From positions 1 to 46,265 of the IMG/VR virus record IMGVR_UViG_3300042905_003683: DNA of 46,265 nt; one strand, written 5' to 3'. The first letter of the stretch is position 1, and the number at the start of each line of letters is the position of its first letter. Of this stretch, positions 10,117 through 39,487 are shown piece after piece. The notes beneath the pieces were generated by a model that was given only the letters and a program-made list of their open reading frames with translations, ran no database searches and was not told where the DNA came from. The stretch is from a virus. Both the position numbers and the translations under genes were made by a program.

Positions 10117-10680
10117 TCAGACTAATCTACGAATAACACGTTTGAGGACTTCATTGATTACTTCATCATCTGTAAGGACTTCTATGTCCTCTTGTAAAGC
10201 GGGTCCAGCGGGTTCATCACCTCCCTCATCGCCTTCGCCTTCGCTTTCTTCATCACCTTCATCTTCCAAATCTGGGAGTTCGGTTTCTTCCTCTTCTTCA
10301 CCGCCCATCTCATCAGCAAGACCAAGCTCACTGAGGGCGTCCATTACTGCATCTTTAATAACTGTTTTTAAATCTTCAACTGAATCAAATTCAACTTCGC
10401 CTTCATCTGCTCCCATATCTTCGCCAACATCTTCCATTGGTTCTTCAACTGAAAGGTCAGCACCCATTGAACCATCGCCCATTTCACCAGCATCACCAAG
10501 ATCTAACTCTTCACCACCACCCATTTCATCTTCACGGGCATATGACATATTTTCTTTAACTAATTTTTTACTATTTTTTTTATTTTCTGAAAGGAAATTC
10601 TGTGTTGCATTTTGGTCAATGTTAGCAAGTTTCATCCACTTTGCTACTTGACTCTCAGATAATAAAGGTTTTTTGCTCAT
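10117..10680 (-). CDS. Highly acidic protein, possible prohead scaffold or core protein
   Basis: A 187-aa protein, strongly acidic. Residues 50-170 are dominated by Glu, Asp and Gly, interrupted by a helix VEDLKTVIKDAVMDALSELG. It ends in a basic helix, EVINEVLKRVIRRLV. The N-terminus MSKKPLLSESQVAKWMKLANI is a leader found on several proteins here, with LSE as a potential prohead-protease site. Acidic, low-complexity, helical proteins with such leaders are typical of T4-type prohead core components, but no sequence family is recognised. AGGAG lies 8 nt before ATG, and ACTATTTA 20 nt before it. Neighbours are a ClpP-type protease and membrane protein downstream. Confidence 0.8.
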   Translation of the reverse strand: MSKKPLLSESQVAKWMKLANIDQNATQNFLSENKKNSKKLVKENMSYAREDEMGGGEELDLGDAGEMGDGSMGADLSVEEPMEDVGEDMGADEGEVEFDSVEDLKTVIKDAVMDALSELGLADEMGGEEEEETELPDLEDEGDEESEGEGDEGGDEPAGPALQEDIEVLTDDEVINEVLKRVIRRLV

Positions 10681-17243: not shown

Positions 17244-17253
17244 AAGGTGTCAA
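17225..17253 (-). promoter_or_regulatory. Promoter nested in hairpin, for uvsE
   Basis: TTGACA (17253-17248), 17 nt, TAGTAT (17230-17225). The -35 is perfect and overlaps the upstream stop codon; the -10 is in the hairpin loop. The expected start at about 17218 leaves only the 3' arm, so GGAGGG is free. Confidence 0.65.
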
Positions 17254-17732
17254 GCTGACATAATTTTATCAAATAAGTTTTGTGGTAGTTCAACGTATTC
17301 AAACTGTTCTGTTTCAGATGGGTTTGGAATTTTTAAAAACATTTTACCATTTTGATCTATAACATAAGCTTTAACAGTATCCTCATCATACTTTGATCTG
17401 AATTGTCTTGGCATTGTATCATAATTAATCTTTAAAATTGCAACTTTTCTGCCATATTGATTTAACAATTGATCATCTCTTAAATCTTTTAACATATCAA
17501 AAAATTGTTTAGCTGGAAATTTTTTAAGAGCGTTTTCTGGTTTAGATCTAAATTTAGGGTCCACAACTGGAGCAGTTGGATCATAACTGAATTGAGGAGC
17601 AAAATCTGCTCTTAATTCTTGTGGTGTTCTTTTTACGCCTACACCATATGGACCTTTTTCATAGGCCCTAATTTCATTTAAGATCTCTTCTCTAATAATT
17701 TGTCTTATTTGCGATTCTGTTATTCTTTTCAT
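17250..17732 (-). CDS. Leader-bearing protein of unknown function
   Basis: A 160-aa protein. It begins MKRITESQIRQIIREEILNE, a leader shared in form with the gene at 32796-33419; ITE and IRE fit the (I/L)xE cleavage rule of T4-type prohead protease. The rest has a Pro-rich linker and a strand-rich C-terminal part (VAILKINYD, KAYVIDQNGKMFLKIP). I chose the ATG at 17732, directly after the terminator's T-run, with AAGGA in the hairpin arm 10 nt upstream; the in-frame extension to 17771 lies in the hairpin. Confidence 0.75.
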   Translation of the reverse strand: MKRITESQIRQIIREEILNEIRAYEKGPYGVGVKRTPQELRADFAPQFSYDPTAPVVDPKFRSKPENALKKFPAKQFFDMLKDLRDDQLLNQYGRKVAILKINYDTMPRQFRSKYDEDTVKAYVIDQNGKMFLKIPNPSETEQFEYVELPQNLFDKIMSA

Positions 17733-17771
17733 AAAAAATGGTTCCTTACCAATTAAATAGTAAGGAACCAT
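17733..17771 (-). terminator. Terminator of dnaE, with ACTATTTA and the next gene's ribosome site inside
   Basis: A perfect 12-bp stem, ATGGTTCCTTAC/GTAAGGAACCAT (17760-17771 with 17738-17749), with a 10-nt loop is followed by TTTTT and at once the ATG of the next gene. ACTATTTA (17761-17754) spans arm and loop, and AAGGA is in the 3' arm. A weak -35 (TTGCTG, 18 nt before TACTAT) lies at the end of dnaE. Confidence 0.85.
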
Positions 17772-17774
17772 TAA

Positions 17775-20700
17775 TTATGCCAGCAATCTAAGTTGTTTGG
17801 CTACATTATTGACACTAAAACCCCAATCATCATAATTTGGTTTAACCATGTAAGGACGATTAGTGAACACAATGTCTTTCTCTTTTATGCCCCAGCATTT
17901 AATTTTAACTTCGGTATTTGTACTGTCAATTGTATTAAGAACCCAATAATCTTTACCAGTTGCTGTTTTCTTCTTTTCAATATCTCGTACAACAAACCAA
18001 GCAAGCCCCAATTCTTCATCGTACTCAGAAATTGGTGGGATCATCTTCTCTTGAAGTCTAATCATAATCTCTGGAGATACAACAAGGTTCATTGGATAAA
18101 CGCCAGTTAGTTCTGTAAGATACTCAATTTTCTCTTCATTTGAGAATTCACCTTCTGGTTTATAGGTTTCAATGTTCTCGATAAGATTTTTGAGTTTACG
18201 AGGTCTATCAACTGCCACTGCTGACCAGAAATGTTTGGCACCTGTAAATCTTTCGTCTATCAAAGTACTACAAGCACCAGAACGAATCAGAACATCAAGA
18301 GCTTTTTTATTGAGTTTGCTGTAAACAATGTTCTCATTGAAAATAAAGTCCTCAACTGTCTTGAATGGTCGATTATTGAAGATTTGTTGAATTGCTACTT
18401 CTCCAAGACCTTTAATCGAAGAAAGTGGCTGAATTAGTGTTTCTCCATCTTCTGAAATCTCCCAAACCATACCAGAAGTATTGATGTTTAGAGGTTCAAT
18501 TTTGAAACCCATAGATTTTGCAAGATTAATTGCATACTCTTTATTCTTTGCATCCTCTTTATCCAAAAATGCTGCCATCCATTCTGCTTTGTAGTAAGTC
18601 AAAAGCCAAGCACATTGATATGAAAGAATCGAATAGCAAACGGCATGAGACTTATTGAAGCCGTAACCCGAAAAATACTCAAATGTTTCCCAAAGTTTCT
18701 GCGCTTCTTTCTTATCAATACCCTTTTCCACACAACCTTCGATAAATTTGTGATGAATCTTGTCTTTTTCCTCAAATCCTTTACCTGTTCCTTTCTTGGT
18801 AAGAAGTTTACGAAGTTTATTTCCTTCATCTAGGTCAACATCTTTACCAAGTTTGTGAGCAAGAATAGCAATTTGTTCTTGAAAGATCAAAAAGCCATGA
18901 GTTTGCTTCGTGACTTCTTTAATTATTGGATGAATATACTTAATGCTTTCTGGGTCTTCTACTGCTGCAATGTAAAGTTTATCTACATCTGCTCCAAGAG
19001 GGCCAGGACGGTAAATAGAAGTAATTGCTGATACATCGATAATGTTGTTTGGTTTTACTTTCTTGCAGAACTCTTGAACTGGAGCTTCTGTAAATTGAAA
19101 GACGCCAGCAAAATTACCTTTATGAAAGACATTCTTGTAAACTTTCTTATCGTTCATGTTCATTTTATCTGGATGTAGGTTTTCATTATAGAAAGCCTTA
19201 ACATCTTCAAATGTTGGGTTTTTAATTGCCTTTGTACGCTTAAGAATGTGTCGAATTGCACCTTCAATCATTCGCAAAGAAGCAATACCAAGAATATCAA
19301 ATTTGATAAATCCCATTGGTTCAAGGTGGCGAACGTTTTGACCCTCTGACCAAGGAGTTTGACGTACACCATCAGAATTAATGAGAGGCATGTATTGATC
19401 AAGATTTTCACCAACTACAACACCACCAGCATGACGGGAACAAGAGCGAACTTGCCCATAAAGAGCATTAATGTGGTTTGCAATGTGTGGATATTTTTTG
19501 AGGAATCCCTGTAGTGTTGCAGAATACTCTTTTACCTCCTCAAATGTTGGCGTATAAACACCAGATTTGATTCCATGCTTTTGTTTGGCAAGTGGTGTAG
19601 CCTCAAGCATCATTTTAGAAGTGACTTCATTTACTTCTTTAAATTCAATGTTGTAAAACTTGCTAATGTCTTTAACAAGAGACTTAAGTTGTAGAGTATT
19701 CCAGTTAGAAATTGGAACTACAGTTGTGTCTCCCCACTCTTTGATTAAAACGTCTTTAAGAACCATTGGGTCAGAAACGTCATAGTCAATGTCTGGGAAC
19801 CCATCTTGATTCTTTGTCATAAAACGTTCAAACAGGAGTTCATGTTTGATTGGGTCTACTTGAGTGATTCCAAGTACATAAGAGACAAGTGAACCAGCAG
19901 CAGAACCACGTCCTGGTCCAACTAGTTGCATTGCTTGTGCTTTATCTGAAATCGCCTTCATTGTGAGGAAGTACTTGCTAAATCCTCTATCTTCAATAAC
20001 ATCAAGTTCTTGGTCAAGTTGCTTAATGTAATTTGGCTTATCAAGCAGACCAAGACTACGCATACCTTCCATAGAATAATGTCGTAGAGCCTCGCCAGCA
20101 GTATAGCCAGCAGGTACTACAAAGTTAGGAAGTCGAACGGTATTATCTGGCATAAAGCTTTCAATACGTTCGTGTGCAATCTTGTAGCTATTTGTAATAC
20201 TATCAAGAACTAGACTCTGCTGATAGTGAACGCCACATTCTTTTGAATATTTTTGAAAAGACTCAAATACTTGTTGACCATTCTTTGGATAAAGTTCGTA
20301 TCCAATTTCATCAACACCAGCAGGAAGTTCAGAATTACCTTCTGCCCACTCTGGCTTGCCCTTACCTAGCCAACCAAGACGCTTGTAAAGCTCACGGTCC
20401 TTCCAAGCATCTGGATTTGGATAATGACTATCACAAGTAGTTACAAGTTGAATACCAAATTCTTCGTGCATCTTGATGATGTATTTATTTAGAATGTGCT
20501 GCTCTGGCACATTGTTCCATTGAAGTTCGCCATACCAACGATCTCCAAAAATGCTCGTCATACGCTTTGTAGCATCGCGGAAAGCAGTAAGGATTGCTTC
20601 CTCACCCTTATCCTTATTCTCCCAATAACAACCAGCGTAAACACCGCCAAGACAAGCAGAAAGCGCAATTACACCCTCATTGTACTTTTGCAGCATTTCA

Positions 20701-21194
20701 TAATCCATTCGTGGGTATCGGTAATAATTCTCAGTCTTGTAACTTTCAGAAACAAGCTTGAAAATATTATTTAGACCCTGCTGATTCATAGCAAGAAGAA
20801 CAAGGTGACGACGACGATTAAGAAGAGATTTAATTTCTTTCTTAGACGCACCTTCATCCTCAACAATTGCACCTGTTACGGATTCATCTTCCGTTTTATT
20901 CTTTTTATCTTCCTTGTGCTTTTCATACTCTGCACGCCAATCGTTAAGAGAAGGAAGAAAATAAGCCTCAACACCGAAAATAGGTTTGAAGTCCTTACCC
21001 TCTTTCTTCATCTTTTTTGCGTGCAGAACTTGCCACGAAAGACCATTCATGTTTCCGTGGTCAGTCAAAGCAAGGGCATCCATTCCGTTAGAATAAGCAA
21101 AATCCATGTGGTCTGGTGGATAACCCATACCATCAAAGATTGAACCTGCTACAGAATGTGCGTGAAGTCCAACAAACTTAATTTCCTTATTCAT
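17775..21194 (-). CDS. dnaE: DNA polymerase III alpha subunit, DnaE type
   Basis: A 1139-aa family C replicative polymerase. The N-terminal PHP domain shows HAHS (11-14), ALTDHGNM (42-49) and FGVEAYF (73-79). Then GPGRGSAAGSLVSYVLG (427-443) and PDIDYD (467-472), the metal-binding Asp pair of the palm, are followed by CSRHAGGVVVG, IYRPGPL and YGFNKSHAVCYS. Near the C-terminus an OB-fold-like stretch (WFVVRDIEKKKTATGKDYW) is visible. Length is close to bacterial DnaE (about 1160). The PHP motif differs in detail, so proofreading activity is unsure. Phages rarely carry this family. A second, compact family A polymerase lies at 38348-39487. Confidence 0.97.
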   Translation of the reverse strand: MNKEIKFVGLHAHSVAGSIFDGMGYPPDHMDFAYSNGMDALALTDHGNMNGLSWQVLHAKKMKKEGKDFKPIFGVEAYFLPSLNDWRAEYEKHKEDKKNKTEDESVTGAIVEDEGASKKEIKSLLNRRRHLVLLAMNQQGLNNIFKLVSESYKTENYYRYPRMDYEMLQKYNEGVIALSACLGGVYAGCYWENKDKGEEAILTAFRDATKRMTSIFGDRWYGELQWNNVPEQHILNKYIIKMHEEFGIQLVTTCDSHYPNPDAWKDRELYKRLGWLGKGKPEWAEGNSELPAGVDEIGYELYPKNGQQVFESFQKYSKECGVHYQQSLVLDSITNSYKIAHERIESFMPDNTVRLPNFVVPAGYTAGEALRHYSMEGMRSLGLLDKPNYIKQLDQELDVIEDRGFSKYFLTMKAISDKAQAMQLVGPGRGSAAGSLVSYVLGITQVDPIKHELLFERFMTKNQDGFPDIDYDVSDPMVLKDVLIKEWGDTTVVPISNWNTLQLKSLVKDISKFYNIEFKEVNEVTSKMMLEATPLAKQKHGIKSGVYTPTFEEVKEYSATLQGFLKKYPHIANHINALYGQVRSCSRHAGGVVVGENLDQYMPLINSDGVRQTPWSEGQNVRHLEPMGFIKFDILGIASLRMIEGAIRHILKRTKAIKNPTFEDVKAFYNENLHPDKMNMNDKKVYKNVFHKGNFAGVFQFTEAPVQEFCKKVKPNNIIDVSAITSIYRPGPLGADVDKLYIAAVEDPESIKYIHPIIKEVTKQTHGFLIFQEQIAILAHKLGKDVDLDEGNKLRKLLTKKGTGKGFEEKDKIHHKFIEGCVEKGIDKKEAQKLWETFEYFSGYGFNKSHAVCYSILSYQCAWLLTYYKAEWMAAFLDKEDAKNKEYAINLAKSMGFKIEPLNINTSGMVWEISEDGETLIQPLSSIKGLGEVAIQQIFNNRPFKTVEDFIFNENIVYSKLNKKALDVLIRSGACSTLIDERFTGAKHFWSAVAVDRPRKLKNLIENIETYKPEGEFSNEEKIEYLTELTGVYPMNLVVSPEIMIRLQEKMIPPISEYDEELGLAWFVVRDIEKKKTATGKDYWVLNTIDSTNTEVKIKCWGIKEKDIVFTNRPYMVKPNYDDWGFSVNNVAKQLRLLA

Positions 21195-29199: not shown

Positions 29200-29613
29200 C
29201 TACCAAGCTTTGCAAGACCAATAACGTGCTTTAGTTTTGGGGCCTGGATTTTCACAATTATGGCGTGCTCTGAAAGATTTACGTCTTTTTGGATTAGATT
29301 TTTTAATCTTCATTTTCTTATCGCCAAAATTAACTTTCTTTATGTTACCAGTTTGTGGGTCTTTAACATAAACTTTTGATTTCTTTACATCACCTTTCAT
29401 TGGTTTGTTCAATGTAACTGTTCTACCTTGATATTTAGCCTCTTGTATAATGGTTCTTTCACTTTCAAGAAGCTCTTCAAGGCAACCAGCGCACACAAGA
29501 GTTCCATCATCCAAAACTGCATCGTCATATTCAGTTTCTTCAGTTTCAATAAAATTTTTAAAATTTTCAGTTAATAGTTGAAAATCTTTAAATGATGTAA
29601 GTTTATCGCTCAT
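29200..29613 (-). CDS. Basic protein with a C-terminal RARHxC...ARYWSCKxW module
   Basis: A 137-aa protein. Its first part, FKDFQLLTENFKNFIETEE, resembles a T4-type capsid leader with LTE as an LxE site. CAGC (about residues 41-44) may bind metal with later Cys residues. The C-terminal 50 residues (KVNFGDKKMKIKKSNP, then RRKSFRARHNC and KTKARYWSCKAW) form a compact basic Cys module that I have seen repeatedly at the ends of marine phage proteins, function unknown. A packaged, DNA-contacting virion protein is my inference. Confidence 0.75.
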   Translation of the reverse strand: MSDKLTSFKDFQLLTENFKNFIETEETEYDDAVLDDGTLVCAGCLEELLESERTIIQEAKYQGRTVTLNKPMKGDVKKSKVYVKDPQTGNIKKVNFGDKKMKIKKSNPKRRKSFRARHNCENPGPKTKARYWSCKAW

Positions 29614-29621
29614 GTTTTTAA

Positions 29622-30473
29622 TTAGTCCTTCTTTTTCTTTTTAGTCCAAGAGATTGCTTTGGAAGATTTCTTTTTTCTTAGCGGTCCTTTACCAGCAGAT
29701 TTACATTGTGCTTTAGTTGGTCTGCAAGCTGGATACTTACCGCCACTATCGGCAGAATCACGACCACAAGGACCACCAGTTCTACAATTTACCCAACCTT
29801 TACCGTCATTTCTAGCAAACCACCCGTGAAGACCTTGTTCTTTTTCTTTAGAGAAGTTTGGCTTATAATCTTTTTTTTTAGCTTCTTCAACTAACTCATC
29901 ATTAAGTTCAAGTTCTTCGTTTTTGTTTCTTCCTTGACAATGAGCTTTTTGTGAGAAGCCTTTTGGATTTTTACAATTAATAGAACGTTTATATTTTTCA
30001 GACCATTTCTCTTCAATTATATTTGTTTCTTCAATTTCTTCAAGAAGCAAAGCATAATCAATTTCTTCGTCTGTTGCACTTTCGCTTATGCCTTTCCAAA
30101 TCTTTCCTTGACGGCATTTAACAACAGCACCAGAAGCATAAGCAGAAGGCCAAACATCGTATTTACGTTTAGCTATTCTTGTGCAACGATCACCAGATTT
30201 CTTCTTTTTAGCTTCTTGGAGATTATTTATGAGTTGTATTAACTTTGGCTTTATATCGTTAGCGGTCATACCTTTTAGTTTTACACTAGCAATAACATTT
30301 TTTATATCACTTTCTAAAGCACCAACAGCAATATCTATTTCGTTTTGTTTTTGTTCTGCTGGTGATTGTGTCTGTGGATTAACTGTTTCAGCTCCTTGCT
30401 CTTCTGTGGAAGAAGATGTTTCTTCCTCAACAAGAAATTTCTTCCAGTTCTCTAAAATTAAATTGTACTTCAT
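29622..30473 (-). CDS. Leader-bearing protein with three Cys-rich basic modules
   Basis: A 283-aa protein. It starts MKYNLILENWKKFLVEEE (LVE is an LxE site). After an acidic linker come three separate small modules: CTRIAKRKYDVWPSAYASGA with VVKCRQG, then INCKNPKGFSQKAHCQGR, then GLHGWFARNDGKGWVNCR with GGPCGR and PACRPTKAQC. The end is Lys-rich. These short Cys modules occur in shuffled combinations in marine phage proteins; none has a known activity that I can cite. A basic, leader-tagged protein suits an internal head protein that meets DNA. It ends 4 nt before the exonuclease-linked neighbour region and precedes a second protein of the same style. Confidence 0.8.
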   Translation of the reverse strand: MKYNLILENWKKFLVEEETSSSTEEQGAETVNPQTQSPAEQKQNEIDIAVGALESDIKNVIASVKLKGMTANDIKPKLIQLINNLQEAKKKKSGDRCTRIAKRKYDVWPSAYASGAVVKCRQGKIWKGISESATDEEIDYALLLEEIEETNIIEEKWSEKYKRSINCKNPKGFSQKAHCQGRNKNEELELNDELVEEAKKKDYKPNFSKEKEQGLHGWFARNDGKGWVNCRTGGPCGRDSADSGGKYPACRPTKAQCKSAGKGPLRKKKSSKAISWTKKKKKD

Positions 30474-32795: not shown

Positions 32796-33419
32796 CTAAA
32801 TACCATAAGTTTTACGTCTAGCTTTTCTAGCTGCTTCTGCCTCTTCTTCGCGGGTACGTACTCCTGGTCTTCTTGTGGTCGAATACTCAAGTCTTCCAGT
32901 ATTTGGGTTTTCCATAGCTGTTGTTTGGTAGACCCTTTCAGCTTCTTCTCTATCAGCTATCTCTCTTCTTTCTTTTTCGCTTCTTGCAAGTGTATCTTTT
33001 TCAGCTTGTCTAGCTGCATAACTTTTGTTAGCTTTTTGATCTCTAACATACTTATCATCTTCTGCTGCTTTTGTATCTCTTTGTTCTTGAGCTTTAGTAG
33101 TTAAATACTTTTCATAAAATTCTTCAACAGGGCCTAAATATCTTCTACCACCACTAGCAGCCTCGTTATCACCCATTGCAATTATTTTTTTGAGCGAGCG
33201 TTCTTGAGAAGGAAACATTTTTATAAAGCCTTCATCATCTAATAATTTTTTTGCTGCATTTTTAATTTCAAATCCAGTTTGGTTACCAACACCAAAAAAA
33301 TCTTGTACTGTACTAAGACCTCTTTCTACAAATCCTGGTTGGTAGCCAGCTTCGTTTAATACAGAATACAATTCTTCTTTTATTATTGTTCTTAACTGTG
33401 ATTCAGATAGTTTTTTCAT
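32796..33419 (-). CDS. Leader-bearing coiled-coil protein
   Basis: A 207-aa protein. It begins MKKLSESQLRTIIKEELYSV, nearly the same leader as the gene at 17250-17732, with LSE and IKE as possible prohead-protease sites. Residues 110-180 are a long charged helix (RSEKERREIADREEAERVY). The end is basic. It is probably a virion or head-core protein by leader and composition; no family is recognised. GAGG lies 10 nt before ATG, and ACTATTTA 18 nt before it. Confidence 0.75.
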   Translation of the reverse strand: MKKLSESQLRTIIKEELYSVLNEAGYQPGFVERGLSTVQDFFGVGNQTGFEIKNAAKKLLDDEGFIKMFPSQERSLKKIIAMGDNEAASGGRRYLGPVEEFYEKYLTTKAQEQRDTKAAEDDKYVRDQKANKSYAARQAEKDTLARSEKERREIADREEAERVYQTTAMENPNTGRLEYSTTRRPGVRTREEEAEAARKARRKTYGI

Positions 33420-35779: not shown

Positions 35780-36211
35780 TTACCTCTGTATGTGTGGAGA
35801 TTTTTTTACAACATAGCAATAGTTTTTTCCAAATGAATTAGAATAAACTCCAAAGCTATTCTTTACAAAATCTTGTGTTTTACTATCTATTTGATTTGAA
35901 ATAGTATCAAAAAGATCACCATCAGTTTCTAACTGTTTCTCATCGATAGAGTAATAGTATCTTTTCTCCCTAAACTCGTCAAGTCCATAAAACATACTTT
36001 CATCACCAGAATTAAAATCCATAATTCCTATAGTATTTATACAATACGTTGGTGAGGATTCAAACTCATTACCTATAACAGATTCATTGTGATCAAAAAA
36101 ATTAATCATGTGAATAGTGTCTGCAATTACAGTATTTAATTTATCATAATAACCTAAAATTGGTATTTTACCAACAGTTTTTGCAACATCTTCGTATGTT
36201 ATTATATACAT
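35780..36211 (-). CDS. C-terminal part of a split Rossmann/tubulin-like protein
   Basis: A 143-aa frame from the first ATG, but the same frame is open back to 36346 and clearly coding (IRIFYIKPSQKFL, then DRIVYNVLQEYTRSKKF), with no ATG, GTG or TTG before 36211. Joined to the upstream 77-aa gene through one inserted base it makes about 264 residues. The pattern MYIITYEDVAKTVGKIPILG, then YYDKLNTVIADTIHMINFF, could be the second half of an FtsZ/tubulin-type or related GTPase fold; this is low-confidence. No ribosome site precedes the ATG at 36211, which argues that it is not a true start. Confidence 0.6.
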   Translation of the reverse strand: MYIITYEDVAKTVGKIPILGYYDKLNTVIADTIHMINFFDHNESVIGNEFESSPTYCINTIGIMDFNSGDESMFYGLDEFREKRYYYSIDEKQLETDGDLFDTISNQIDSKTQDFVKNSFGVYSNSFGKNYCYVVKKSPHIQR

Positions 36212-36346
36212 TGAATCAAATTTTTTAGATCTTGTATACTCTTGTAAAACGTTATAGACAATTCTATCTGTTGTTTTTTGTAAATCTGTTAGGAACTTTT
36301 GACTTGGTTTAATATAAAAAATTCTAATGTTACAATCTTTATATTT
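36212..36346 (-). other. Open coding frame without a start codon
   Basis: The frame of 35780-36211 extends upstream to a TAG at 36349-36347. It encodes KDCNIRIFYIKPSQKFLTDL and on to RSKKFDS without a standard start; ATT at 36328 or 36322 would be the only near-start codons. It joins smoothly to the previous gene's LKVLEI if one base near 36341 is removed. Confidence 0.7.
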
Positions 36347-36572
36347 CTAAAACTTTTAAAGAAGCAGAACATACAATTTCATCACCACTTACAAAAAAAT
36401 CTAAATCACTATTATTATCTATAGAATCTATTCTAATATGATCTGTTTTTTCTTCATACTTTTCTGGATGGTCTTGTTCTTGTACGTCTACTTTGTATAT
36501 TTTATATTGTGGGTATTTACAAAATTTATCAACAATAGAACAACCAGTTTTACCTAATCCTAATATGTTCAT
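36339..36572 (-). CDS. N-terminal part of a split Rossmann/tubulin-like protein
   Basis: A 77-aa frame. MNILGLGKTGCSIVDKFC is a nucleotide-binding first strand, turn and helix; YKIYKVDV is strand two; SGDEIVCSASLKVLEI looks like a Gly/Ser loop plus helix. It stops abruptly (ATA TAA) while coding continues in another frame. The FtsZ/tubulin comparison rests on the order G-x-G-x-x-G, strand, then S/G loop, not on a clear signature. ATGA overlap with the Nudix gene. Confidence 0.65.
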   Translation of the reverse strand: MNILGLGKTGCSIVDKFCKYPQYKIYKVDVQEQDHPEKYEEKTDHIRIDSIDNNSDLDFFVSGDEIVCSASLKVLEI

Positions 36573-36973
36573 TCATAACCCATTGGAATCTCTAATGCAG
36601 TAGCAATAATTTCTTTTACATAAGGGGTTTTGTTCTCAAGATCATCAATATCTTTGTACTCAATCCATTTATGGTCACAATGTTCATAATTTAATTCAAT
36701 ATCATTTTTGAATTCATCACAAAAATAAATATACATTTTACCTGTTTTTGTTTTACGAAGACCAGCATACGTCACTTTACCATCGAGATTTGTTTCCTCT
36801 TTTAACTCTCGTTTAGCAGCTTTGTATGGTGGTTCTCCCTTTTCTATATGCCCACCTGGAAATGACCAGTGAAGTGGCATCCACTCATCTGTTTTGGATC
36901 TTTTAATTAAAAGTATTTTATTTTTATCTGTAACAACAATAACAACAGAATCGTGAGTATCTTTTTCTTCCAT
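36569..36973 (-). CDS. Nudix hydrolase
   Basis: A 134-aa protein with a full Nudix box, GGHIEKGEPPYKAAKRELKE (residues 40-59) followed by ETNL, fitting GX5EX7REUXEEXGU except the final positions. The substrate could be an oxidised or non-canonical NTP, NADH-type dinucleotide or capped RNA; the sequence does not decide. HWSFPGG and the YIYFCDEF strand suit an MutT-like member. Confidence 0.93.
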   Translation of the reverse strand: MEEKDTHDSVVIVVTDKNKILLIKRSKTDEWMPLHWSFPGGHIEKGEPPYKAAKRELKEETNLDGKVTYAGLRKTKTGKMYIYFCDEFKNDIELNYEHCDHKWIEYKDIDDLENKTPYVKEIIATALEIPMGYE

Positions 36974-36979
36974 GAGTAC

Positions 36980-37966
36980 CTACTTTACTATTTCTTTTAT
37001 AACCTCTTTAATGGTTTGTTCAAGTAAACTTTCTTTCATGTGTTTAAAATATTGTACTTGTCTTTCTCTTTTTTCAACACCTTTTTTTGAAGAATAACAA
37101 CCAAGATTTTTATTGCCTTTTTTTGATTTCAAACACCATTTTGAACCTTGTCTAACTATACGTTCATTTATAGCTGTTGTTTTTTTTGTACCATACATAA
37201 TAAAATCAATAAAAGCTTGGTGTGGAGTACCATGTAAAGCTCTTTCTTCTCTATTGGTTCTCATATCATATTTTAAAACACCAGGAGAACCCATTGTAAT
37301 TGCAGGAGTTCTGCTTTCTATTACAGAATTAATAATTTCATTTACTTTTTGTTTTTCTTGTTCGTTTTGTACAGAAATGATACCAGATTTTAAAACTAAA
37401 GCTCTTGCTGCAATTGCTGCTGATCTATTCATACCTGCTTTACAAGAAACAAGAACAAAAGCACTATCTGGTTCATTAGCAATATTTTGTGCTACTTGTT
37501 CCATTTTAGATAATTGTTCTTCTGTTGGATTACTTGTGTCTTGTGTAGGACAAGCAACAACTTTTCCTTTTTGACTTTCCATTTCTTGTGGGGTTAGTTG
37601 ATTTATTGTTTCTTCGGCAACAAGATAAACTTTGGTAAATCTATCAACTATATCTGTCATTAGCTTAGAACCCATAACAGGTTGCTCACCAACATAAATG
37701 TTAGAGCTTCCTATTTGATTGTATCTATCGCTTTCAGAAGGTTTCATGCCAACTGATTTTTTTAATTTATCAAATATACCCTCACCCATAGGAGGAGCAG
37801 ATTTGGAACGTTCCATAGAAGGTTTGATAGAGTAAGGAGGACCAGCTTTTTGTCCTCCGTGTCCAATTACTCTTTTTTTAAGACGACTATGCTTAGCCTT
37901 CATTTTTCTCTGATAAGGCTCAGTCTGTTCCAATAAATCTCTAAGTTCTTTTACTAAAGGGTCCAT
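36980..37966 (-). CDS. Dual-specificity-phosphatase-like protein with a Cys-rich basic module
   Basis: A 328-aa protein. Its N-terminus is basic (RKMKAKHSRLKKRVIGHG) and has LLEQTE near residue 11. Residues 170-190, FVLVSCKAGMNRSAAIAARA, carry the C-x5-R loop (Cys175 to Arg181) of protein-tyrosine and dual-specificity phosphatases, with the usual Ser after Arg; the His before Cys is replaced by Ser. An upstream Asp for acid catalysis is not obvious. Residues about 275-305 (KWCLKSKKGNKNLGC, then KRERQVQYFKH) form a small Cys module seen on other marine phage proteins, and the C-terminal helix MKESLLEQTIKEVIKEI resembles the leaders elsewhere. Substrate unknown. Confidence 0.8.
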   Translation of the reverse strand: MDPLVKELRDLLEQTEPYQRKMKAKHSRLKKRVIGHGGQKAGPPYSIKPSMERSKSAPPMGEGIFDKLKKSVGMKPSESDRYNQIGSSNIYVGEQPVMGSKLMTDIVDRFTKVYLVAEETINQLTPQEMESQKGKVVACPTQDTSNPTEEQLSKMEQVAQNIANEPDSAFVLVSCKAGMNRSAAIAARALVLKSGIISVQNEQEKQKVNEIINSVIESRTPAITMGSPGVLKYDMRTNREERALHGTPHQAFIDFIMYGTKKTTAINERIVRQGSKWCLKSKKGNKNLGCYSSKKGVEKRERQVQYFKHMKESLLEQTIKEVIKEIVK

Positions 37967-38322
37967 TATTTAAGTGTCAACAGGTACTTGAGTTTATTAA
38001 ACTCTCCAAGAATTTCATCACGAATGTTTAAAAGATCTGTATCTCTTTGTGCATCAAGCACATTTGTAAGACCAATCAAAAATTCAATATAGCCATCAAC
38101 AATACCTTCTACATCACCGCCAAGGTTCTGTAATTCAATTGGACCAGCAACACGAACTCTTCCGTTTCTTCCCATCCAAGCTTCTGCAAATGTGTCAATA
38201 AGATCGCCAAGCGTACCATAAATTCCACCAAAAGCTGAATGTCTGGCGAATGATTTTGTTTGCCAATGGAAGATTCTCATTTGTTGTTCCATTTGGACTA
38301 GTTGCATTATTACTTGGTCCAT
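37966..38322 (-). CDS. Ferritin/Dps-like four-helix protein
   Basis: A 118-aa protein, nearly all helix: MEQQMRIFHWQTKSFARHSA, then GTLGDLIDTFAEAWMG and TDLLNIRDEILGEFNKLKYL. FHWQTKSxARHxAF recalls the first helix of Dps and of a viral ferritin-like family. Iron-binding residues of true ferritins are not complete, so DNA protection is only a guess. AGGAG lies 7 nt before ATG, and ACTACTTA, a near match of the recurrent element, is 18 nt before it. Confidence 0.75.
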   Translation of the reverse strand: MDQVIMQLVQMEQQMRIFHWQTKSFARHSAFGGIYGTLGDLIDTFAEAWMGRNGRVRVAGPIELQNLGGDVEGIVDGYIEFLIGLTNVLDAQRDTDLLNIRDEILGEFNKLKYLLTLK

Positions 38323-38340: not shown

Positions 38341-38348
38341 TAAGTAGT
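38341..38348 (-). promoter_or_regulatory. ACTACTTA, near match of the ACTATTTA element
   Basis: The coding strand reads GACTACTTATAG 18 nt before the ATG at 38322, just after the polymerase stop. One mismatch to ACTATTTA at the common spacing. Confidence 0.3.
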
Positions 38349-39487
38349 CAAATCTTATGCATTTCTCCATAATTATTACCTGCTTTCACATTAACCTTAA
38401 ATATTCCAAGGTCTGTTGATGAATAAATCTTGATAATTTCTTTTAGATCTTTTTTATCTTCTTCTGCCAAATCAATAACAATGTTGTCATGAATTGTAAA
38501 AGCTATGTATGATTTACGACCTTTTAAAAACTCAAACACTTTAATCATCTGACGAAGAGCGAGTTGAGCAAAAGAAGACTGAATAAGGTAAGACAAAGCG
38601 TGCTTAGAATCTGCCAATATTTCTTTGCCGTAGAAATTAGTAATCTTCTCTCCATCCCAATACTTGCCAAGGACTTTTTCTTTATTGTAAATGACTTCAG
38701 CCTTTTCATTTTTTGTATCTCCATAAAGCCAAGCAAGAAATGAGACTTTTGCTTCATCTCTTGTTTTATTTCCGTCAAAGATATGTTTTGCATTCCAATC
38801 GTGAATGTCAACGTTTGGTTGTTCAACACCAGCAAGAGCCAAGAATGTACGAAGCTCTGCACCGTTGTAATCAAGTTCAATAAACCAATCATTATTTGGA
38901 TTTAGAATTGTTCTGTGGTTCTTGTCCATCTGCATAATAGGGAATGAACGCTTATGAGTTGAGAGTCTGCCAGTTTTAGTTCCAAAGATGTTGTAGTTGA
39001 TGTAGGGACTAAGATTGGAATACTTGTCGATAATTTTATCTTCTGAAAGACAAGAAGTATCAATGTTTAGTTTTCTACTTCTAATGTCCCAAACAACCTC
39101 TGAAAGAGCCACAAGATAATCATAATCATGTGGCTTCTGTTTTGTTTCAAGAACTTCTTTTACAATCTTGGTTTTTGCATCGTAATAGTCAACCAAAAAA
39201 TGTTGAGGAATTAGATCAAACAAACAATTATCATCAAGATTAATTTTAGAGTTTTGAAAGGACTTAAAAAATGCTTTCATCTTGTCATTAAGCATCTTCC
39301 AATCTTCTTTGTTGTTGGAAACAGCATCATTAATCTCGCCTTGAAAATACAGGTAAGCATACTCTCCGTTTTGGAAAGAAGGATGATAATTCCAAGAACG
39401 AGCAAATTGTGGAGCTTTGTCAGTTATTACGCCATTACAAAAATAACCAACACACTCACCTTTGTTGTCGAGTGGTTCAACATACAT
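38348..39487 (-). CDS. Compact family A DNA polymerase
   Basis: A 379-aa polymerase core without 5' or 3' exonuclease domains. Motif A, ELDYNGAELRTFLALAG, has Asp206 and the ELR triad. The O-helix RDEAKVSFLAWLYG has Arg243, Lys247 and Tyr255. Motif C reads FTIHDNIVID, with Asn in place of the usual Glu of HDE. The position equal to E. coli Phe762 is Leu251; in viral PolA, Leu762 has been linked to temperate or slowly replicating phages. The thumb region is short and unusual. With DnaE elsewhere, the phage has two polymerases; this one may do gap filling with the exonuclease. AGGAGG lies 4 nt before ATG. Confidence 0.9.
   Translation of the reverse strand: MYVEPLDNKGECVGYFCNGVITDKAPQFARSWNYHPSFQNGEYAYLYFQGEINDAVSNNKEDWKMLNDKMKAFFKSFQNSKINLDDNCLFDLIPQHFLVDYYDAKTKIVKEVLETKQKPHDYDYLVALSEVVWDIRSRKLNIDTSCLSEDKIIDKYSNLSPYINYNIFGTKTGRLSTHKRSFPIMQMDKNHRTILNPNNDWFIELDYNGAELRTFLALAGVEQPNVDIHDWNAKHIFDGNKTRDEAKVSFLAWLYGDTKNEKAEVIYNKEKVLGKYWDGEKITNFYGKEILADSKHALSYLIQSSFAQLALRQMIKVFEFLKGRKSYIAFTIHDNIVIDLAEEDKKDLKEIIKIYSSTDLGIFKVNVKAGNNYGEMHKI

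Follow-up and report, generated by a model that had tools for sequence, protein, structure and literature searches.

What might a phage gain from a phosphatase domain that is set between a short leader helix, a basic block and a small basic domain at the C-terminus? This question is raised by a gene of a marine T4-like phage, which lies in a 46,265-nucleotide stretch of viral DNA (IMG/VR record IMGVR_UViG_3300042905_003683, called the window here in its whole length). A first-pass annotation had reported a C-x5-R phosphatase loop in this basic, virion-like protein. The open reading frame and its coordinates agree with that annotation, and the translation contains VLVSCKAGMNRSAAIAARA. The residue borders of the leader, block, phosphatase, C-terminal module and tail (Table 1) were set by comparison of relatives.

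From sequence comparison and from analogy with phage T4, it seems probable that the dual-specificity-type phosphatase (DSP) is made as a head precursor, which would be targeted by its leader, trimmed by a gp21-type protease and injected with the DNA to act on a phosphate of a protein, an RNA or a nucleotide.

Table 1. Positions in the window of the parts of the gene, its conserved neighbors and a second leadered protein. Slashes mark predicted cleavage points.
Feature	Residues	Position	Strand	Properties or basis
Whole gene		36980-37966	-	328-aa mosaic of leader, basic block, DSP, beta-beta-beta-alpha module and C-terminal helix
Leader helix	1-13	37928-37966	-	MDPLVKELRDLLE, ending L-L-E/Q, as at sites of the T4 prohead protease gp21
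Basic block	14-62	37781-37927	-	QTEPYQRKMKAKHSRLKKRVIGHGGQKAGPPYSIKPSMERSKSAPPMGE; pI 10.6
Linker and dual-specificity-type phosphatase domain (exchangeable cargo)	63-268	37163-37780	-	pI 6.2
Asp143, candidate general acid	143	37538-37540	-	invariant, 11 homologues
Catalytic P-loop CKAGMNRS	175-182	37421-37444	-	C, G, N, R and S invariant, 11 homologues
C-module (so-called Cys module)	269-312	37031-37162	-	basic beta-beta-beta-alpha domain; pI 10.3
C-terminal amphipathic helix	313-328	36983-37030	-	LLE/Q and IKE sites; sequence, AF2
DUF5856, conserved upstream neighbor		37966-38322	-	marks the syntenic locus; Pfam, synteny
NUDIX hydrolase, conserved downstream neighbor		36569-36973	-	kept whatever the cargo; Pfam, synteny
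Second leadered protein of the window		29622-30473	-	MKYNLILENWKKFLVE/E; canonical ENW leader, LxE site at fixed register

An active-looking phosphatase domain

The assignment of the C-x5-R loop to a phosphatase is borne out by Pfam, PHROG, a homologue profile and structure prediction alike. The window protein matches PF22741 (PTP-NADK) with 30 bits, above the cutoff of 27 (E 4e-7), PF00782 (DSPc) with 25.4 bits, under the curated cutoff of 33.5 (E about 1.3e-5), and PHROG 10650, ‘dual specificity phosphatase’, with an E of 5e-8. A PDB search with the single sequence is weak (best E 0.13, ShufPTP), and a profile of eight divergent homologues retrieves ShufPTP (3.9e-7), Tk-PTP (1.8e-5) and VHR (about 3e-5). 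An AF2 model of the 328-residue protein, built from nine sequences only, has a mean pLDDT of 64, with most of the DSP core at 70-89. When compared with the PDB by Foldseek, this model matches PTP and DSP structures at E 2.4e-6 with probability 1.0, and 88 matches are found at E<=0.001. Matches in a viral structure library are mostly to DSPs of giant viruses, baculovirus and poxvirus. By both profile and fold, the nearest solved structures are the archaeal-type Tk-PTP and ShufPTP (5z5b, 9e9l), which share about 16-19% identity with the window domain and carry neither leader nor tag modules.

The residues expected of a working enzyme are also in place. Cys175, the first Cys of CKAGMNRS, is followed by Arg181 and Ser182 in the C-x5-R-(S/T) arrangement, and the predicted general acid, Asp143, lies within ‘TQDTSNP’ about 30 residues upstream of Cys175, a spacing like that of DSPs. 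All 11 divergent homologues, whose identity in this domain falls to about 28%, share D143, C175, G178, N180, R181 and S182. Because C175, R181, S182 and D143 are retained at such low identity, purifying selection on catalysis is indicated. Both sequence and model support the view that the gene encodes an active-looking phosphatase of the DSP/PTP fold.

A fixed locus with an exchangeable middle

Relatives in IMG/VR share an order of genes in which a DNA polymerase A fragment and DUF5856 precede the gene, and NUDIX followed by gp32- and RecA-like genes come after it. Comparison of relatives L003 and L007 yields amino acid identities of 98% for the N part, 98% for the C part and 35% for the DSP. 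At the nucleotide level the gene ends are 92-100% identical (82% in a transition bin) and the flanking genes 95-99.8%, whereas the core is at about 50%, the level expected by chance. Ends and flanks that are nearly identical on either side of such a core indicate that the middle was replaced, rather than that the gene diverged uniformly.

Other alleles extend this picture. Some carry no cargo (122 aa in L008/L009 and 84 aa in L026/L164), and in L004 the C-module has been relocated ahead of the DSP. The cargo is DUF5661 alone in L180, DUF5661 with the DSP in L168, a PNK-like HAD (PHROG 415, E 1.5e-10) with the DSP in L172, and a 2H phosphoesterase with the DSP in one frame in L021. As judged by these sequence comparisons, the window protein is mosaic and occupies a fixed locus, and its conserved termini flank an exchangeable enzyme core. 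The locus is polymorphic with a variable mature domain, as are those of T4-type internal proteins, and the rapid exchange of the middle, together with the intact catalytic residues, would fit an arms race.

The persistence of cargo-free versions at this locus suggests that the tags have a function independent of the cargo, as might be expected if the protein were structural or served as a scaffold and its DSP were catalytically unimportant or degenerate. This explanation appears very improbable when set against the invariant catalytic residues of the 11 divergent sequences.

Predicted prohead protease sites around the phosphatase

The T4 prohead protease gp21 cleaves after L/I-x-E; in IPIII, residues 1 to 10 make up the capsid-targeting sequence (CTS), whereas Alt is trimmed at both termini (PMC9026906). 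In the window protein, [LI]xE sites end at residues 13, 268, 316, 321 and 325, and none occurs in residues 14-265. The leader reads DLLE/Q, and P3 is L or I in every homologue of the DUF5856-NUDIX locus. Syntenic homologues carry the leader MDKILQNWDKFLNE/Q, and homologous leaders include MDKILQNWDKFLNEQ; the window leader is without the ENW signature of its homologues. The C-terminal site of L003 and L007 reads SAVE and is thus without L/I.

Similar sites recur at predicted boundaries in a wider set of proteins. Of 20 distinct basic-block boundaries, 15 have L or I at P3 (binomial 4e-8 versus 0.18), a position that lay outside the search query, and other positions are not enriched. For proteins with (N/S)W leaders, [LI]xE falls exactly at W+4 to W+6 in 32 of 56 distinct N-termini, and other offsets have 0-4. 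Outside the DSP core of the 11 DSP homologues there are 46 [LI]xE occurrences, compared to 16.0 +/- 3.7 after shuffling (0 of 2000 shuffles reach 46), a significance that is overstated by shuffling since the sequences are related; inside the core there are 11 versus 16.2 expected. Amphipathic helices can also give [LI]xE spacing without cleavage. Therefore, these counts are supportive and do not amount to proof.

The leader-like helix that had been noted at the C-terminus is predicted by AF2 to span residues 294-327, although confidence is low past residue 309. By analogy with the second, C-terminal propeptide of T4 Alt, residues 313-328 could possibly be a propeptide.

A gp21-type protease (PF03420) is present in 8 of 13 and 6 of 16 records tested. 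It occurs in G001, which has the DSP locus, in G003, which has the cargo-free locus, and in each of the seven records of 100 kb or more that carry the basic block; it is missing from fragments and from several records that carry the C-module only. Neither head genes nor a gp21-type protease were found in the 46-kb window contig, and so the protease is seen only in relatives. The likely major capsid protein of G001 and G003 has the sequence ELLRE/SN, which we take to correspond to the cleavage site of T4 gp23.

Tag modules shared with enzymes and head proteins

The basic N-terminus described in the first-pass annotation is evident in the composition of residues 14-62. This basic block is placed at the N-terminus, internally or at the C-terminus of other phage proteins, which include RNA-ligase/nucleotidyltransferase-like, HAD, nucleotidyltransferase and unknown proteins, with several of these names based on visible motifs rather than on Pfam. 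No isolate with the basic block was found among 50,697 phage records, and no relative of the L172-type DSP was found among isolated phages. Searches of bacterial and archaeal genomes gave no confirmed relative of the window protein, and PADLOC and NCBIfam gave nothing useful.

The ‘Cys module’ of the annotation is real and widespread, as it is found at no fewer than 410 viral loci, but its name is a misnomer. In many relatives K/R/E and T/K/E stand in place of its two Cys, and the module is therefore not a metal site, which eliminates a zinc-finger reading. The predicted fold consists of three strands and a helix (pLDDT 87, AF2), a topology that led us to suspect an AP2 domain or integrase arm; we do not claim this identity, as lambda integrase (1z1g) appeared at E 2.5 and TMq 0.55. 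Foldseek comparison of the C-module with the PDB gave nothing significant, and a PDB profile search with the module gave chance matches only.

Pfam assignments in 49 carriers of either module comprise CTP_transf_like (7), NT5C (2) and one instance each of PARP, ART-PolyVal, DUF3990, NUDIX, HD, nucleotidyltransferase, GH19 and DSPc. The C-module also forms the C-terminus of RB43-type gp57B, which is Acb1 (PF23474, E 2.8e-48), and most matches of the single sequence among isolated phages were to this copy. A check of the frame placed these matches in gp57B and not in a neighboring hypothetical gene. Furthermore, the C-module is the N-terminus of a protein of ~470 residues that adjoins capsid genes in ~46-kb siphoviruses and has weak matches to head-maturation proteases, and PA5oct encodes a 64-residue C-module protein beside two structural proteins confirmed by mass spectrometry. 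No Peptidase_S77 was detected in the C-module phages G021, G023, G025, G026 and W02, and thus the C-module by itself does not establish that gp21 processing takes place. Siphoviruses of enterobacteria that encode the longer C-module protein are represented by L023:2648-4060 and L213:2498-3898 (PHROG 760).

The window gene lies outside the head cluster, among genes for gp32-like and RecA-like proteins, a DNA polymerase A fragment, NUDIX and a deaminase. This setting would suit an ordinary early or middle phosphatase that takes part in host takeover in the cytoplasm, whose leader, basic block and C-module would be tags for binding nucleic acid or the replisome rather than for reaching the head. 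It would also be in keeping with Acb1, which is not known to be a virion protein. However, the T4 genes for Alt and the IPs likewise lie outside the head cluster. Moreover, a cytoplasmic role leaves unexplained the [LI]xE sites at fixed register, the protease site that is built into the basic-block boundary even within large proteins, and the presence of the C-module on siphovirus proteins that resemble head-maturation proteases. We consider such a role to be unlikely.

Proposed delivery and possible substrates

Relatives swap the enzyme yet keep the tags, which suggests that the enzyme is probably injected with the phage DNA. Based on sequence and on the T4 precedent, we infer that the DSP would be packaged in the capsid, cleaved and injected. 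Its short N-terminal leader would serve as a T4-type capsid-targeting sequence and draw the protein into the prohead core, where a gp21-type protease would cut after L/I-x-E at the leader and probably also at the borders of the basic block and the C-terminus. Once trimmed, the enzyme would enter the host with the DNA, perhaps joined by the basic blocks as peptides associated with DNA, and would strip phosphates ahead of any phage gene expression, most likely as a countermeasure to a host response. The earlier suggestion that the phosphatase is delivered with the DNA is thus well supported, though only indirectly, by the boundary L/I-x-E sites, the protease of large relatives, the exchanged core and the modules shared with enzymes and head proteins.

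Host signaling and phage phosphoproteins had been named as targets, and RNA or nucleotide phosphates are at least as plausible because of the company that the domain keeps: a 2H phosphoesterase, a PNK-like HAD, RNA ligase, nucleotidyltransferases, NUDIX and Acb1. An alternative to the broader proposal, which differs from it in substrate only and has the packaging mechanism in common, is that the enzyme acts on RNA ends or nucleotide signals and not on proteins, as one among several packaged enzymes for RNA or nucleotide processing that undo host tRNA cleavage or immune second messengers. The fusions of the DSP to the 2H phosphoesterase (L021) and to the PNK-like HAD (L172) are consistent with this alternative, as is the occurrence of the modules on RNA ligase/nucleotidyltransferase-like, CTP_transf-like, NUDIX, NT5C, ART/PARP and Acb1 proteins. 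The P-loop has an invariant Asn before the Arg (GxNRS), as in DSPs of the RNA 5′-triphosphatase type, and the Foldseek matches include the baculovirus RNA 5′-phosphatase 1yn9 and capping-enzyme triphosphatases. However, VH1 also has an NRS loop, ordinary DSPs and Tk-PTP/ShufPTP outscore RNA phosphatases in both Foldseek and profile searches, and guilt by association is weak at a promiscuous cargo locus. The companion enzymes therefore point to RNA or nucleotide phosphates and the best structural matches to protein phosphatases, and we hold action on RNA or nucleotides to the exclusion of proteins to be a tentative prospect that falls somewhat short of likely.

Comparison with known packaged proteins

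The proposed packaged precursor resembles T4 IPI, IPII, IPIII and Alt, which also have a short N-terminal leader, the CTS, ending in L/I-x-E (PMC9026906), with conserved leaders followed by a mature part that varies at a polymorphic locus (PMC9026906, PMC12373910). These proteins are processed by gp21, and the large relatives of the window gene encode a gp21-type protease. Ip1-3 are injected, variable anti-restriction proteins, and the type IV restriction enzymes that they block differ from one to the next (PMC12373910). Unlike the T4 proteins, the cargo in the window is a DSP phosphatase flanked by an additional conserved basic block and C-module, the leaders of its group are of the ENW or LLxE type rather than copies of the T4 leader, and its packaging is a prediction.

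Polyvalent proteins (Iyer et al., 2017, PMC5512222) are multidomain, exchangeable effectors that are predicted to be packaged and injected. L021 (2H with DSP) and L172 (HAD with DSP) likewise combine enzymes, whereas the window protein has one enzyme domain only. Pfam gave no match to a metallopeptidase domain, a trait of polyvalent proteins, in the window protein, L172 or L021, and separation of domains here would instead use the prohead protease. The word ‘phosphatase’ is absent from the main text of the polyvalent-protein paper (PMC5512222).

Vaccinia VH1/H1L is a virion-packaged DSP that, once released, dephosphorylates STAT1 before early gene expression (PMC9282662). It has in common with the window protein the DSP fold and, as proposed here, delivery by the virion and action before viral gene expression. 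However, VH1 comes from an unrelated virus with another packaging route, and sequence kinship is not claimed. Packaged NAD+/ADP-ribose enzymes of myoviruses (ART, Macro, NADAR and Nudix; PMC9503650) represent the same idea in contractile-tailed phages, and several of these enzyme domains also carry our tag modules; DSP cargo and shared tag modules are not described in the passages considered.

The component parts of the window gene are of known kinds. Our literature search found no paper that reports a packaged phage DSP, nor one in which a DSP is described as a cargo that is exchangeable, probably packaged in the head and set between shared tags. If our proposal is correct, the internal-protein strategy of T4 would reach beyond small restriction inhibitors and take in a catalogue of enzymes of uncultured marine phages, and a phosphatase would join the virion-delivered phage enzymes as a phage parallel to the packaged poxvirus VH1. 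Sequence tags might also predict injected effectors without proteomics. Since one locus offers natural variants both without cargo and with swapped cargo, the idea can be tested directly.

A wider generalization, which we advance with reserve as it strikes us as rather less than probable, is that large marine T4-like phages possess a plug-in delivery system. Whatever enzyme stands behind an LxE leader with a basic block, a beta-beta-beta-alpha module or both would be loaded into the head, freed by the prohead protease and injected. The resulting, rapidly exchanged arsenal against host immunity could include DSP, 2H, PNK-like, RNA ligase, nucleotidyltransferase, ART and NUDIX enzymes, with the DSP as a counterpart of VH1 that acts on an immune phospho-signal.

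Other leadered proteins and neighboring genes

The window encodes leadered proteins at 29200-29613 and 29622-30473, both of which have basic, Cys-containing C-terminal blocks (RARHNCENPGPKTKARYWSCKAW; GLHGWFARNDGKGWVNCRTGGPCGR) and gave no Pfam match. These proteins are likely to be further head cargo. A second leader type, TESQ[LI]R.II[KR]EE...LNE, is found at the N-termini of the window proteins at 17250-17771 and 32796-33419 and at the C-terminus of that at 10117-10680, and it also starts G003 proteins that adjoin the gp21-type protease (e.g. 27356, 28516, 28924 and 29996). This sequence is probably another head-targeting leader.

Two adjacent ENW-leader proteins, L148:14924-15778 and L148:15791-16747 (G001 74924-76747), have protein-kinase-like motifs (G.G.FR...VIKVD). 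Pfam gave no confirmation of kinase identity for this pair and was uninformative for the leadered proteins of G001. If the motifs are real, kinase-like enzymes would share the leader in a phage that also has a leadered phosphatase. RB43 gp57B (L022:1533-2156), the anti-CBASS enzyme Acb1, carries the C-module, which raises the question of whether Acb1 is packaged in the virion.

At 35780-36572 on the minus strand, the window has open reading frames of 77 and 143 aa where relatives have one gene of 262-268 aa (e.g. L002 2966-3760), a split that suggests a frameshift, an assembly error or a decayed gene. A DnaE-like (Pol III alpha) protein of 1139 aa is encoded at 17775-21194, and a C-terminal-type DNA polymerase A fragment of 379 aa at 38348-39487.
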